Shown one piece after another: positions 24,706 to 41,493 of a stretch of DNA of 64,000 nucleotides. The DNA is taken from assembly GCA_011525685.1 (NCBI GenBank), contig WYBW01000187.1:1-64000 (forward strand), given 5' to 3'. Made by a program: the position numbers and the translations under genes. Source of the stretch: Verrucomicrobiia bacterium (lineage in GTDB: Bacteria > Verrucomicrobiota > Verrucomicrobiia > Limisphaerales > JADLHS01). The notes beneath the pieces are model-generated. The model saw nothing but the letters and a program-made list of their open reading frames with translations, had not been told where the DNA came from and did no database searches. The first letter of the stretch is position 1, and each line of letters starts with the position of its first letter.

Positions 24706-27700
24706 TTATCCCGCCCGATTCGGATACTTCGGCTTCTGGGGTGATGGTACCGGCTTCTGGCGGACTGCCTTCTGCACCTCGAGGACCGCGCGCTCCAACT
24801 GTGGGTCGCCGCCCCGGGCCATCTCGCCGGGATCATCCACGACCTCGATGTCCGGGTCCACGCCGTAACTCTCGATGATCCATTCCCCCTCATTGTTGTA
24901 GATGCCAAAGGTCGGCACCGTGACGCTGCCGCCGTCAATCAGGGGCGGCGCACCGGTCATGCCAATCAAGCCACCCCAGGTCCGCTGGCCAATCAGCGGT
25001 CCGAGGCCCGATTGCTTGAAGTAGTAGGGGAAGCAGTCTCCGCCCGAGCCGCTCCAGCCGTTGACGAGCATCGCCTTGGGCCCGTAGTGCGCCACGGGCG
25101 GCCACGACCAGTCCTTGCCGTCACGGACGCCCCAGAAGTTTCTCAAGGGCCGGTTCAACAACTCGACGAACCGGTCGGGAATCTGCCCGCCGCTGTTGAA
25201 ACGCTCGTCAATGATAAGCCCCTCCTTCGTGATTTGCCCCCGCCATTGCCGGACCAGTTCGTTCTGCCCGTTTTGGCCGGTGTCGGGCACATAGACGTAT
25301 CCGATCTGGCCGTCGCTCAGTTGTTCCACGCGGCGGCGGTTTTCGTCCATCCACGCCAGGTTGCGCAGGCGCGCCTCGCTGCTCAGGGTTTGCACCAGCA
25401 CTTCTTTGGCGCCTTGGAGCGTGGGCTCGCGGTTCACTGTGAGAAAAACTGGTTTGTCCGCCATGCCCTGGAACGCCGCCCAAGGATCCTTGCTCGTGTC
25501 GAGGGGCTCGCCATTTACCGCGAGCAAGTAATCGCCCTCCTGCACGTTGGTCACGCCCGGCTGCAACAGCGGCGAACGCACCTCGCTGTCCCACGGCGCG
25601 CCGTTGATGATCTTGGCGATGCGATACGCGCCGTTGGTCAGGACGAAGTCGCAGCCCAGATAACCCACGCCCCGCTGCGTCGAGCGTTCGGTGTCGCCTC
25701 CGCTGCGGTAGGTGTGCGACGAGTTCAGCTCGCCGATCAATTCGCCGATGATGTAGTTCACGTCCCAGCGGGTGACGGCATCCTCCAGCAACGCGCCATA
25801 GCGTTCGCGCATCGCCGGCCAATCCACGCCATGCAAGCCGGGATCGTAGAAGAAATCCCGCTCCAGCCGCCAGGCGTCGTTGAAGATCTGCCGCCACTCG
25901 GCCACCGGATTGAGGTTCGATTCGAAGCCAGCGGTGGCGATGCGCTTGTCCATCTTCTGATTCTCCTTCGGCTCGATGATCGCGTAGGCCGAGCCTTGGC
26001 GCACCAGCAGCTTCTGGCGATTGGCGGAAAGCTCGTAGCCGGCCACGTCATCCAGAATGGTTTTCTCTTCGCGCTTTTCGAGGTCGTAAAACATGAGCGT
26101 GCTGCGTTCCCCGTCCGAACCGATGCGCGGCAGCCGCCGGTAGAGCAACTTGCCCGACACTGCCCCCAGGTCCGCGTAACGCCGGCCGTTGGGCGGCAGA
26201 ATCACCACGCGCTCCTCGAAGCCGTCCAAATCAATCTCCACCGGCTTGGTTTTCTTGTCGTCCTTCTTGGCGTCCTTGGTTTCGGCAGGCTTGGTCTCCG
26301 GCTTTTCAGCTTCCTTGGCTTCAGCCGGCGTTTCCTCGGCAATGTCGCTTGCTGCGGCCGCATTCCCCTCACCCTGGCCCTCTCCCTCCGGGAGAGGGAG
26401 GCCGCTACCCCGGCGGGACGCAGGTTGTGAGTCAGTCGTGGGGGAGCCAACATTCGAGGGATGAACCGCACTCGACTGCTGTTCCCTCTCCCCAAGGGAG
26501 AGGGTCAGGGTGACGGGAAACGCCACGTGTACACGCTGCCCATCTTCCTTTTTCTCATCTTCCTTCTTTTCGTCCTCCTTCTTTTCCTCGTCCTTCTTCT
26601 CGTCCGGCTTCTTCTCCTCCTCCTTTTTCTCTGCCTTCTTGGTGGCCGGTTCCTCGTCGTTGCGCGGGGCGAGTGGCGAGGGAAGGTCCTTGCGCAAAGG
26701 CACCGCCGCGAGATTCCACGTGTTGGCGTAAATCCAGGAGTTGTCCAGTTCGCTGTAATTCGGCCCAAACGTCCGCCCGGTGCGGAAGTAAAGATACTTG
26801 CCGTCGGGGTCGAACACCGGCTCTTCGTCGTTGTAAAAGCCGGAGGTCACTTCATGGCGTTTATTCTCCTTCAAATCGTAGATTACGATCGCGCTGTTGC
26901 GGTTGTCCTTGTCGCCCGCGTAGGCGATCCAGCGATTGTCCGACGACCAGCTCACAGTGAAGCGGCTCAGGTTGCCGTGATACATCCACAACTGCTGGTC
27001 AATGCACCGGTTGGTTTGAGTGTCGAAATCATAAATCCAGATGCGCATGGTCTGGTCAATCCAGAGAATCTTCTTCGAGTCCGGTGACCACTGCGGCTGG
27101 TAACGAAAACCCGGCCCGAGCTGCGTGAGCGTGCGCTCGTTGTCCTGGCCGTCCATCGTGCGCTCGGCGTCGCGCACGGTCAGTTCGTACTCGCCGGTCC
27201 GGTCGCTGAAGTAGGCGATGAGTTTGCCGTCGGGCGACCAGGTGGGATAACGCTCGGCCACGCCTGAGGAGCGGGTGACGTTGCGCACCACCCCGTGCTC
27301 GGCCGGGGCGGAGAAGATGTCGCCCCGCGCCTCGAACAACGCCCGCTTTCCGGTCGGCGAAATTGTCGCGCGCTGGATCGAGCCGGACACGTTCTCGATG
27401 CGCGGTTTGAGCGTGGCGCGGTCGGTCGTGACCGTGATTTGGACTTCCCGCGATTTTTCGGTCTTGAGATCCAACAGGTGCAGCCGGCCCGCGTTCTCAA
27501 AAACGATTTCCGCCGGGCCGATGCTCGGGAAATGCACGTCATGTTCCGTGAACGAGGTCACCTGCCGGAAGCGCTCCCGGTTCGAGTCGTAGGCCCAGAG
27601 ATTGAAGCGTTTGTTCGCGTCGCGGTCGGATAAAAAGTAGAGCGTGTCGCCGTGCCACATCGGCATGGACTCGGCGGCCTCGGATTGCGTCAGGTTGCGC

Positions 27701-38082: not shown

Positions 38083-38802
38083 ATGCTTCGCTTCCCGGAC
38101 AGTCCTCTCTCCGCCCGCGCCGGCGGGAGTGCTGCCCGGCTTGCGACGAGTTCGCAACCCGCCGGTGATCGGTTGGCGTTTGAACGAGCTTGTTGGGCGC
38201 GCGGCGCGACCTTGGTGGCAGGAGTGGATGAAGCTGGCCGCGGGCCGCTCGCCGGTCCGGTGGTGGCAGCCGCGGTGGTGTTTCCACGGGAATGGTGCGA
38301 GACCGGTTTCGACGAACGGCTGCGCGATCTCAACGATTCCAAGCAACTTACCGAAACGCAGCGCGAGGAGTTTTTTGCCGTGCTCACGTCGCTGGCGGAG
38401 GTCCGCCACGGGCTTTCGGTGGTGGACGCCGACACCATTGACCGGCTGAACATTCTACAAGCCACGCACCGCGCCATGAATGAAGCGCTGGCGCGGTTGC
38501 GCCCGCCCCCGGAACATGTGCTGGTGGACGGCAGGCCGGTGAGGTCCATGGCCATTCCCCACACGGCCATCGTGAAAGGGGACGCACTCAGTTACTCGAT
38601 CGCCGCCGCCAGCGTGATCGCCAAGGTCACGCGCGACCGGCTGATGCTGGATTACGACCGGCAGTTCCCCGGTTATGGCTTCGCCGAACACAAAGGTTAC
38701 GGCACGCCACAGCATCTGGCCGCCATTGTCGAATTGGGCCCGTGCCCGATCCACCGCCGGAGTTTTGCGCCCTTCAAGCCGGCGCAGGCGCAACTGTTCT
38801 GA
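38083..38802 (+). CDS. rnhB: Ribonuclease HII
   Basis: Endonuclease that cuts the RNA strand of RNA-DNA hybrids and removes misincorporated ribonucleotides. Seen: VAGVDEAGRGPLAGPVVAAA (catalytic Asp-Glu), LNDSKQLTETQREEFF, HVLVDGRPVR (third acidic residue) and VIAKVTRDRLMLDYDRQFPG (fourth). C-terminal YGFAEHKGYGTPQH is typical. I chose ATG 38083; GTG 38071 is possible. The ~27 residues before GDRLAFERA are longer than usual and include the hairpin word TTGCGA/TCGCAA, so the true start may be later or the leader repeat-derived. It is convergent with the methyltransferase gene. Confidence 0.93.
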   Translation: MLRFPDSPLSARAGGSAARLATSSQPAGDRLAFERACWARGATLVAGVDEAGRGPLAGPVVAAAVVFPREWCETGFDERLRDLNDSKQLTETQREEFFAVLTSLAEVRHGLSVVDADTIDRLNILQATHRAMNEALARLRPPPEHVLVDGRPVRSMAIPHTAIVKGDALSYSIAAASVIAKVTRDRLMLDYDRQFPGYGFAEHKGYGTPQHLAAIVELGPCPIHRRSFAPFKPAQAQLF

Positions 38803-38818
38803 GCCCGCCAGCGAACGG

Positions 38819-39937
38819 TCATCGCTTGGACAGCACGGCGACCAGATTGTCCGCCAGCCCGAACGCGGCGAGGGATTTCTCCGCGAGTTGATAGGCCGCT
38901 TTCACGGGCTTCAGCCACGACTTCTGTTTGTAGGCCGTCGTTCGCTTGAGCAATTCACCCCGTTCCTGGTTGGAAATGTTCCGCCCGCCGCCGCGCCAGT
39001 CCTGCCAGATCACCACCGGATTGAAGTGGGTGAACCGGACTTGCGCTAGCGCGAAGCCGCTTTCCATGGCCAATCGCGTCAACGTCAGCTTCGTGAAGTA
39101 GTTCAAGTGTTGCGGATAAACGTAGCGATACTTGGCGCCCAACAACCGCACGGCCAGCGAACGCAAGTTGGGCACGAGCACAAAGCAAAGGCCGCCTGGC
39201 CGAAGAATCGAGCGGGCCTTTTCCAGGAACTGTCTCGGTTCGGCCAGATGCTCGAGCACCGCCCAGAACGTGACGGCGTCGAACCCCTCTGCCGGTCTCC
39301 GGTCACCCTCTCCCCATCCGATGGGAAGAGAGTTGCCCGGGCAAAAGCCCACGCTTTGAACCTTTGAATCCTGAAGCGCCTCCTCAGCCGGCGGGATGCC
39401 ACTCCCTCCCCCATCGAGGGAGAGGGAAGGATGAGGGGGCGGTTCATTGGGAGGAACAGGGTGAGAGGCATTCGGCGTTTCCGGATTTGGGCGAATGACA
39501 AAGTCTTGCGCCAAGAAATTCCCCCGTAACACCGGCACCCCGCGCGACTCCGCGTAATCCAGCGGTGCGCCGCTGACATCCGTGCCGAGAATCTCGTAAT
39601 CGCCGGGCCATCGCCGCTTGAGCTGGAACAGGAATGCCCCCGAGGAACAGCCGACGTCCAGCACCGCGCCGCGCGGACAGAATTGTCGGAACAATTTCAA
39701 CTCACGCTCGAAGCGGATGTCCGCGTAATCGCTCTCCAGTTTGGCGGCAGAAAGGTAATAGCTTGCCCCTTCGGTGTCGTAGAATTCACCGCTGGCCATG
39801 CCGGCGGGCGCGGGATTGGCATAGACCATTCCGCAATCACCACAGCGAACAAGTCGCAACTCGCCCTTTTGCCAGTGCGGAGTGGATTGTAATCCACGGC
39901 AAACCGGGCACGCGCGGTGAACGAGGGATGCGCTCAT
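38819..39937 (-). CDS. SAM-dependent methyltransferase with N-terminal zinc-ribbon
   Basis: Class I methyltransferase of 372 residues. It begins with a Cys4 motif, ACPVCRG ... RCGDCGMVYANP, as in methyltransferases of sugar/lipid modification loci. The SAM pocket is AVLDVGCSSGAFLFQLKR and ILGTDVSGAPLDYAESRG; motif FDAVTFWAVLEHLAEPRQFL follows, then the post-motif III region RPGGLCFVLVPN. The substrate is unknown. Residues ~147-218, between VLRGNFLAQDF and FDAVTFW, are Pro/Ser/Gly-rich and made of palindromic repeats (39284-39499); without them the protein would be ~300 residues, the normal size. It lies between rnhB (convergent) and the YraN-like gene (divergent). Confidence 0.85.
   Translation of the reverse strand: MSASLVHRACPVCRGLQSTPHWQKGELRLVRCGDCGMVYANPAPAGMASGEFYDTEGASYYLSAAKLESDYADIRFERELKLFRQFCPRGAVLDVGCSSGAFLFQLKRRWPGDYEILGTDVSGAPLDYAESRGVPVLRGNFLAQDFVIRPNPETPNASHPVPPNEPPPHPSLSLDGGGSGIPPAEEALQDSKVQSVGFCPGNSLPIGWGEGDRRPAEGFDAVTFWAVLEHLAEPRQFLEKARSILRPGGLCFVLVPNLRSLAVRLLGAKYRYVYPQHLNYFTKLTLTRLAMESGFALAQVRFTHFNPVVIWQDWRGGGRNISNQERGELLKRTTAYKQKSWLKPVKAAYQLAEKSLAAFGLADNLVAVLSKR
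39284..39499. repeat. In-frame composite palindromic insertion in the methyltransferase gene
   Basis: Two hairpins of the CTCTCCCCATC/GATGGGAAGAG type bracket an unrelated core: the left near 39310-39335, the right near 39405-39430 (CTCCCTC/GAGGGAG). They match the stem of the intergenic copy at 40001-40027 and, more loosely, those in the tricorn gene. The insertion adds about 72 residues without a stop. Confidence 0.75.
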
Positions 39938-40000
39938 TTACGACGCCATGTCCAACAACACCAATACGCCAAGACAAAGCCTTCACCCGCCTTTCGGCCA

Positions 40001-40027
40001 CCCTCTCCCCATCTGATGGGGAGAGGG
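40001..40027. repeat. Perfect 13-bp hairpin, intergenic copy
   Basis: CCCTCTCCCCATC, one T, then GATGGGGAGAGGG: 13 perfect pairs around a single base. It is the clearest copy of the family found inside the neighbouring methyltransferase gene, about 500 bases away. Confidence 0.85.
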
Positions 40028-40086
40028 AAGGGGTGAGAGGCCGTGCTTCCGAATTGCATAAGGTGTCCAGCTATTGCTATAAAACC

Positions 40087-40557
40087 ATGCAGCACCAACC
40101 GCGACAATCCAAATCCCGAAATGCCACCATGAACCTCGCCGCGCGAGTCAAGTCACTCCTCGGCCGGACTGAAAAGCCCGAACACTTGCGCCGCGGCGAA
40201 CTCGGCGAGAGTGCGGCGAAGAAACATCTTCAGAAACTCGGCCTGAAGTTTCTCACCGCCAATTTCCGGTCCGATCGTGGCGAAATTGACCTGGTGTTCC
40301 GCGACCACGATTGCCTCGTGTTCGTGGAAGTGAAGGCGCGCTCATCGGAGGAATGGACGCGCCCCGCCGCCGCGGTGGATGCGCGCAAGCGCCGGTTGCT
40401 TTCACAAACGGCGCTCGATTACTTGAAACTGCTCAAGAATCCCGAGGTGAAAATCCGCTTCGACATTGTGGAGGTTTTATTGGCCAACGGCGAAGTGCGC
40501 GAGGTGCGGCATCTGCCGAATACGTTTTCGTTGAGCAAGCCGTATCGGTATGGGTGA
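40087..40557 (+). CDS. UPF0102 (YraN-like) nuclease-fold protein
   Basis: A 156-residue protein of the UPF0102/YraN family, with a restriction-endonuclease-like fold and no settled function. Motifs: RRGELGESAAKKHLQKLGLK, LTANFRSDRGEIDLVFRD and CLVFVEVKARSS form the putative D-(E/Q)-x-K centre (GEIDLV...VEVK). KRRLLSQTALDYL follows, then VKIRFDIVEVLL. Two ATGs are possible, 40087 and 40129; the second would start MNLAARVKSLLG. The frame is open far upstream, but that region is repeat sequence. rnhB, often a neighbour of yraN in bacteria, lies two genes away. Confidence 0.85.
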   Translation: MQHQPRQSKSRNATMNLAARVKSLLGRTEKPEHLRRGELGESAAKKHLQKLGLKFLTANFRSDRGEIDLVFRDHDCLVFVEVKARSSEEWTRPAAAVDARKRRLLSQTALDYLKLLKNPEVKIRFDIVEVLLANGEVREVRHLPNTFSLSKPYRYG

Positions 40558-40704: not shown

Positions 40705-41260
40705 TTAGGAGTTCGTTGCCTCGCGATTCAGGTTGCCCAGCGCAGTGAAGAGGACCTTGAGCTTGGCCTCAATGCTTTTCTTCAACGCCAACGGATCCAG
40801 CCTCGCCTGCTCGGCCCGCAGCCGCGCCTTTGTCGCCGCCGGGATGTCCGGGCTTTCCAGCAGCCGTTGTTACGGCGTCTTCGGCTCGGACTCATAAATA
40901 CGCTTGGTCTTCCTATCCCGCTTCTCGTGCCGCCGCGGCTTGAACGTGGGGTTGAAGTGATTCGTGAACTGGCTCCATTCCGGGCATAGAGGTCGTTCAT
41001 CCGCGCCACCAGTTCAGGATGCCCGAACTGCTCATGCCCGAGGAGCTGCCGCACATGCGTCCAGTTCTTCTGCTCACAGTGCGCGTTGTCGTTCTTCCGA
41101 TACGCCCGGCTGCGCGTCCACGGCGTCGGGGCCGCCCGCCCCCTCAGGTGCCGGTGCAGCGCCCAGTTCCGGAACTCCCCGCCGTTGTCGGTGTGGAAGT
41201 CCGTCATCGGAAACCCTGAAACTCCCTGCTTCACTTGCAACAATAGATTGCCTGGTGAAA
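40705..41260 (-). pseudogene. Degraded integrase-core transposase fragment
   Basis: The 3' half of a DDE-type integrase related to a lineage of stand-alone insertion-sequence integrases. Reading down the minus strand: TDFHTDNGGEF (second catalytic Asp), TRSRAYRKNDNAHCEQKNWT (third acidic, in HCEQKNW) and VRQLLGHEQFG. A -1 frameshift then occurs near 40980, after MNDLYA, and the sequence resumes as WSQFTNHFNPTFK. An in-frame TAA at 40870-40872 (after EPKTP) follows, then RLLESPDIPAATK to the end. The N-terminal half is missing. No terminal inverted repeats or target duplications were found. It is a dead remnant of an old insertion. Confidence 0.8.
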
Positions 41261-41349
41261 AACTCGAGGTGCGTGGCGAGTCTGCAAGCTGCTTCGACCA
41301 CGCATGAAGAACACGAACTGACGACGGCTGCGGAGTCATTGATACCGGC

Positions 41350-41401
41350 GTAACAGCGGTTTTCCAACCGGCGCCCGCGCCGACTGGAAAATCGGCGTTA
41401 C
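41350..41401. repeat. Long imperfect inverted repeat beside the integrase remnant
   Basis: GTAAC at 41350 and GTTAC ending at 41401 close a 52-base palindrome with inner matches GTTTTCCA/TGGAAAA and CGGC/GCCG. It lies upstream of the integrase fragment and downstream of the Bax-inhibitor terminator. It resembles the other palindromic elements more than an IS end. Confidence 0.7.
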
Positions 41402-41463
41402 CAGTGAGCGGTCCTTGGGCCGCGAGTTGCAAGACCCACCGCCCACGCCGCACGCGGAAATGA

Positions 41464-41493
41464 ACAAACAAGGCCCGGCTTACGCCGGGCCTT
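41464..41493 (-). terminator. Rho-independent terminator of the Bax-inhibitor gene
   Basis: A 10-bp perfect stem, AAGGCCCGGC/GCCGGGCCTT with loop TTAC (41470-41493). On the minus strand it is followed by GTTTGTTCATTT. It lies 20 bases after the stop codon of the gene at 41514. Confidence 0.75.

Follow-up and report, generated by a model that had tools for sequence, protein, structure and literature searches.

Two units of a mobile-looking palindromic element have very probably inserted in a loop of a methyltransferase gene, where frame-preserving copies tolerated by the loop have presumably been selected and the enzyme probably still works. Behind this reading stand a dispersed element family, a short linker in orthologues of the gene, a reading frame kept at other element sites and a gene that is under purifying selection outside the insert. 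The element would have entered the gene in the loop just ahead of the core strand FDAVTFW. Insertions would occur widely, with selection keeping the frame-preserving ones in tolerant loops, and the inserted segment would be translated as a disordered Pro/Gly/Arg-rich loop in an enzyme that continues to work. The features concerned are listed in Table 1; "the window" denotes the whole stretch of 64,000 nucleotides that was analysed.

Table 1. Positions of the methyltransferase gene, its insert and element copies in the window
Feature	Position	Strand	Basis
Class I SAM methyltransferase gene, 372 aa, cysteine-pair N-terminus, carries the insertion	38819..39937	-	ORF, Pfam, AlphaFold, Foldseek
Linker, 216 bp, 72 codons, net gain 204 bp	39284..39499	-	4 codons in 14/17 aligned rows
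Palindromic unit A, left arm degenerate	39285..39348	-	R1 33.9 bits
Palindromic unit B, full length, ATGAACC at 5' side as in some other copies	39379..39439	-	R1 53.1 bits at 39380-39438; alignment
Near-intact element copy, just upstream of the methyltransferase ORF	39979..40040	-	R1 73.2 bits
Second composite of the R1 family, in frame in a long (-) ORF, Lys/Glu-rich linker	26365..26517		Low-scoring R1 matches (29.2 bits at 26365-26420, 20.9 bits at 26471-26517), ORF open across

The methyltransferase site in the window and in relatives

The methyltransferase ORF matches the Pfam family Methyltransf_23 (E 2.2e-19), and its insert is flanked by RGNFLAQDF and FDAVTFWAVLEHL. The insert holds two units of a dispersed, palindromic element of ~62 bp. 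An alignment of 16 copies, including two from the window and one from L011 (a Pedosphaera MAG from Baikal), was the basis of the element's structure and of its covariance model, R1; the scores of unit B and of the copy upstream of the ORF are those of members of this training set. The right end of unit A adjoins conserved TTCGAC codons, and 31 nt of the insert ahead of the left-arm-like CCTCTCACC are attributed to neither unit. A search of Rfam with window positions 38800-40200 gave a single match (E 0.66, 20.6 bits against a gathering score of 64). At 40782-41471 (-) the window has an ORF with an HTDNGGEF stretch, which we take to be integrase-like; the ORF is possibly an insertion-sequence remnant.

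A previous, sequence-only reading of the window had described a 72-residue insertion here, with two hairpins of a repeat family whose perfect 13-bp copy lies about 500 bases away. The alignments bear out the insertion, R1 recognizes both hairpins as family members, and the 13-bp stem is found at 40001-40027, ~500 bases past the insert and within the near-intact copy. Its suggestion of recent local spread is not supported: the family occupies 66 dispersed sites in the genome, and the insert finds its longest good matches away from this locus, on contig C56 (84% over 69 nt) and in L011 (87% over 47 nt), against 90% over 31 nt with the copy next to it. Shorter versions are also held at the same site by two genomes of other genera, G002 and G006. 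On whether other genera have a similar segment, as that reading had proposed to check, the outcome is divided, with shorter related inserts in those two genomes and none in 14 of the 17 aligned rows.

The 17 rows comprise eight from the search of the family, the window's own genome included, and nine from genome contigs; L011, whose protein and insert are identical to those of G002, was kept out of them. At the E 1e-30 level, a methyltransferase match was absent from 4 of the 12 family genomes. Fourteen rows have a linker of exactly 4 residues; that of the window has 72, that of G002 31 and that of G006 21. The single unit of G002 and G006 corresponds to unit A of the window.

Whether the three genera received separate insertions or share a single old ancestral one, which several lineages have since lost or recombination has spread, is evenly balanced; the single-insertion history is compatible with the explanation given above. 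All three carriers have A instead of T at one position of the right end, where T is found in 34/34 scored copies of G011 (another genome of the family), in 8/15 scored copies of the window's own genome and in 17 of 18 other matched copies of G006 and G002; the A recurs in the one further G002 copy that was matched, which weakens this sign of common origin. G002 and G006 have in common the apex GTCGGAC, not seen in those 18 other copies but present once in a copy of the window's genome (L051). The starred branches of the gene tree force just one change between carrier and empty states, whereas the best tree requires three, and a tree with the carriers in one clade has p-AU 0.0325. Losses would have to be precise, since all 14 empty rows have exactly 4 residues. 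Finally, the inserts of G002 and G006 are identical at 50/60 nt, a value within the range of the gene body, where 25 of 262 windows are as high.

Effect on the enzyme

The methyltransferase belongs to class I of the SAM-dependent enzymes by its Pfam domain, its AlphaFold fold and its Foldseek matches. The AlphaFold model (11 sequences) has a mean pLDDT of 75.4 and a confident core; pLDDT falls below 50 in residues 149-214 and in the short stretches 266-271 and 307-312. Foldseek returned class I enzymes, with sugar C-3'-methyltransferases on top at modest TM-scores. Among the best matches are KijD1 and TcaB9 (E down to 5.8e-11), from which the protein nevertheless differs in having 13-15% identity, query TM-scores of 0.44-0.48 and poor rmsd; the likeness does not imply a substrate.

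Outside the insert, the gene has dN 0.141 and dS 0.94 between the window's genome (G000) and G002, and dN 0.18 and dS 1.12 between G000 and G006. The resulting dN/dS of the gene body, ~0.15 for the carriers G000 and G002, is a pairwise value that also spans time preceding the insertion. With the core retained in the predicted structure and this low ratio, the methyltransferase is probably active despite the insert, which we infer to be a tolerated loop in a working enzyme.

That the insertion killed the enzyme and left a young pseudogene is improbable. A net gain of 68 residues beside the SAM site is large, and the insert of the window is longer than in either other carrier; against this, the frame is open through all 372 codons, the SAM motifs are kept, the body dN/dS is low and the AlphaFold core is confident, although activity itself is deduced from these features. 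The sequence-only reading had offered an inactive enzyme and a long surface loop as alternatives. The former finds no support in the open frame, the motifs or the body dN/dS, and the latter is supported by the model, in which the low-confidence segment coincides with the insert and the core is mostly well predicted.

Reading frame and host proteins at other sites

R1 gave 82 matches (E up to 0.1) in the genome of the window, which may be a lower bound because 150 of 3069 candidates were scored. Merging by hand the matches on both strands of one palindrome into one site left 66 sites, two of which are the units of the methyltransferase insert. Sites were classified by the codon-usage score of both flanks, with a table trained on 32 ORFs of the window. 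Thirteen are in frame and open, none is frame-shifted and none has a stop between same-frame flanks; the other 53 have coding sequence on one side (19), on neither side (25) or apparently on opposite strands (9). The score is crude, in that both methyltransferase units were classed as one-sided and thus fall outside the 13, and long ORFs with Pfam domains run across some of the sites classed as "opposite strand" (e.g., C193 and C176:408762).

As a control, 52.4% of unmodified window positions were same-frame and open. Consensus inserts of 62 bp placed at random were other-frame in 55.1% of cases and same-frame open in 0.3%, those of 63 bp were open in 37.8% and contained a stop in 19.6%, and those of 64 bp were other-frame in 54.7%; the classifier therefore detects both frame shifts and stops. 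Because an insert of 62 or 64 bp must shift the frame, an appropriate null, with net length variable, puts about one-third in frame, and under it 13 against 0 has a probability of (1/3)^13 = 6e-7, a figure weakened by the sites not all being independent. Element copies are scarcer in genes than random positions are, and the frame is kept where they are present. An ORF that extends 100 codons or more both ways from the element spans it at 29 of the 46 sites examined among the 66, a count to be read with the caveat that GC-rich DNA often has long ORFs by chance.

These counts also bear on whether the hairpin segment is left untranslated, by ribosome bypassing or by removal from the RNA or the protein. 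T4 gene 60 is the comparison for a bypassed segment, and intragenic inserts that bear hairpins do resemble known bypassed segments. Skipping the segment would need neither an open element nor a kept frame, yet not one of the 66 sites shows a stop between same-frame flanks or a frame change and 13 are open in frame, which makes this explanation very improbable.

We scanned 30 ORFs against Pfam. In nine of them the element falls within the best domain stretch, these being AMP-binding, CHAT, ABC transporter, phosphodiesterase, N6 methylase, EPSP synthase, exosortase, beta-lactamase-fold and PMT domains. In three further ORFs (class V aminotransferase, Methyltransf_28 and Ala racemase N) the domain match is apparently broken at or beside the element. 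Six ORFs had no Pfam family at E 0.001, and the others have the element beyond the best stretches, between them or within repeat arrays. Four proteins besides the methyltransferase were compared with solved homologues, and in all four (DppD, AroA, NifS and HsdM) the alignments gap or break at the element. The NifS-like gene of the window's genome has, besides the R1 element, a second in-frame stretch missing from the solved homologues (L114 705-774), which contains a different palindrome with 24-nt arms starting GTAG. In an acyltransferase/AMP-binding gene of the same genome (L058), two R1 elements ~290 codons apart are read in different element frames.

Nine of 11 family rows of DppD have no insert in the loop concerned; the rows are the 11 closest family matches among those listed, and two genomes give two rows each. 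There the window's genome has an R1 element (net 54 bp); the insertion of G002 in the same loop (L212, net 84 bp) is a different palindrome, with long inverted arms. This coincidence underlies the more tentative idea, to which we give somewhat less than even weight, that Verrucomicrobia of this order host a coding-palindrome system in which the same tolerant loops of conserved enzymes are invaded again and again by unrelated palindrome families, whose copies are retained in frame. If true, such insertions would be a recurrent and measurable source of new protein segments. For both the methyltransferase and DppD, close relatives with an empty site are available, and the tolerance, retention or loss of inserted protein segments can therefore be studied directly. 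Annotators should take such loops for repeat DNA, not for new domains.

The element family, its spread and its resemblance to known repeats

The element is drawn as an outer stem enclosing an inner hairpin of 12-13 bp and a small hairpin. In the alignment, 88.1% of cells pair in the drawn structure, compared to 50.6-61.0% in slid structures, a figure that is favoured because the structure was drawn from those very sequences. Cells with two-sided changes number 13, against 5.3 in shuffles and 14 in one slid control (-2). Over the whole structure, 6 pairs are changed on both sides, which is ordinary beside 4.2 in shuffles; within the small hairpin, 3 of the 4 pairs are. The sequence evidence for a conserved structure is accordingly mixed. 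An adaptation of the element to coding was considered and rejected, with 4 of 6 consensus frames open, about what composition predicts by our estimate.

The least credible explanation of the insert does without a mobile element and takes it for an ordinary lineage-specific loop whose repetitive look is due to chance: the 216-nt insert, folded as single-stranded DNA, exceeds shuffles only mildly in stability (z -1.6, 11 of 200 shuffles equally good) and unit A scores low, but a model-free pattern search of the window's genome found 26 forward and 25 reverse matches against 0 for a reversed-pattern control, unrelated genes contain the same element and one unit stands at the same site in G002 and G006, so that the genome-wide family largely contradicts it.

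R1 matches occur in all 11 family genomes searched, the window's own included (E 0.001, both strands counted, G007 not drawn), and, under stricter filters (E 1e-6), in 35 of 78 genomes of the order, again with its own. Plasmid and phage collections gave no match to the element. G011 has 125 matches at E 0.001, both strands counted, and the copies read there (L151-L190) are near-identical, some of them lying inside other inverted repeats (L158-L160, L164 and L171); their similarity suggests a recent amplification of the element in G011. From 40 fetched regions of this genome, 37 copies were chosen by pattern, and these share identical end bases, CCCCTCACC to GGGTGAGGG. Their flanks are mostly unrelated, except that three have flanks of another repeat in common. 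The borders show a weak preference, with G at position -1 in 24/37 copies and A or T as the first 3' base in 31/37. A conserved upstream motif of the TTCCG type was considered and set aside; TTCCG was found in 6/36 5' flanks, 0/36 3' flanks and 7/72 far flanks.

Insertion into hairpin loops or palindromic targets was rejected as a general rule, because at 12, 20 and 30 nt the flanks pair no better than permuted flanks. In 34 G011 copies, left-right flank pairing gave p = 0.97 at 12 nt, 0.80 at 20 nt, 0.19 at 30 nt and 0.016 at 40 nt, the last perhaps owing to a few copies that sit inside other inverted repeats.

The element would multiply as a non-autonomous selfish repeat, with the enzyme supplied in trans. 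Genes of PF01797 (RAYT) are present in 11 of 12 family genomes (E 1e-6). None of the eight such loci in the window's genome has an element copy nearby, and among 20 loci fetched in relatives (of 50 matches) two do. The only strong case is in G008 (L191 1544-1606), with an R1 copy of 81.6 bits ~170 bp downstream of the domain, and the other is in G006, with two weak R1 matches around one RAYT domain. Both cases are indistinguishable from chance, and these loci do not support RAYT as the mover.

Rickettsia is the best-known case of coding palindromes. Two papers describe Rickettsia palindromic elements (RPEs) as short palindromic repeats found in frame in unrelated protein genes (PMC10969869; PMC3733652), with a length of ~150 bp (PMC10969869). 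The present element is likewise short, palindromic and in frame in unrelated genes (13/66 sites in frame and open, 0 frame-shifted). Measured against those RPE descriptions only, it is set apart by its phylum, its 62-bp unit and its three-stem layout. It is a distinct coding palindrome in environmental Verrucomicrobia, and the genes it occupies include basic ones (EPSP synthase, a cysteine desulfurase, a peptide transporter). A literature search, with most subscription journals outside its coverage, found no published description of the element.

GTAG- and CGTC-tagged REPs also occur as palindromes wholly within ORFs, single or grouped, and the highest number of intragenic GTAG repeats is given for the verrucomicrobium O. 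terrae; clusters encode 43 to 82 residues in Thauera and R. conorii (PMC3733652). The present element, too, is found within ORFs in a verrucomicrobium. Its outer stem encloses two hairpins, unlike the tagged REPs, and its consensus runs CCCC...GGGG with no unpaired terminal GTAG. The CGTC-tagged family is described as having a terminal CGTC and an 8-9 bp stem that begins with AT pairs (PMC3733652); by that description the present inner stem, of 12-13 bp and with C-G pairs first, is different, even though CGTC adjoins the inner hairpin in 27/37 G011 copies, counted by eye. By analogy, the element acts like RPEs and intragenic REPs without their defining tags. In the consensus, the inner hairpin is followed by GTGG, a variant of GTAG-20 of O. 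terrae as given in the same text (PMC3733652), and this may reflect a remote link between the element and the GTAG REPs.
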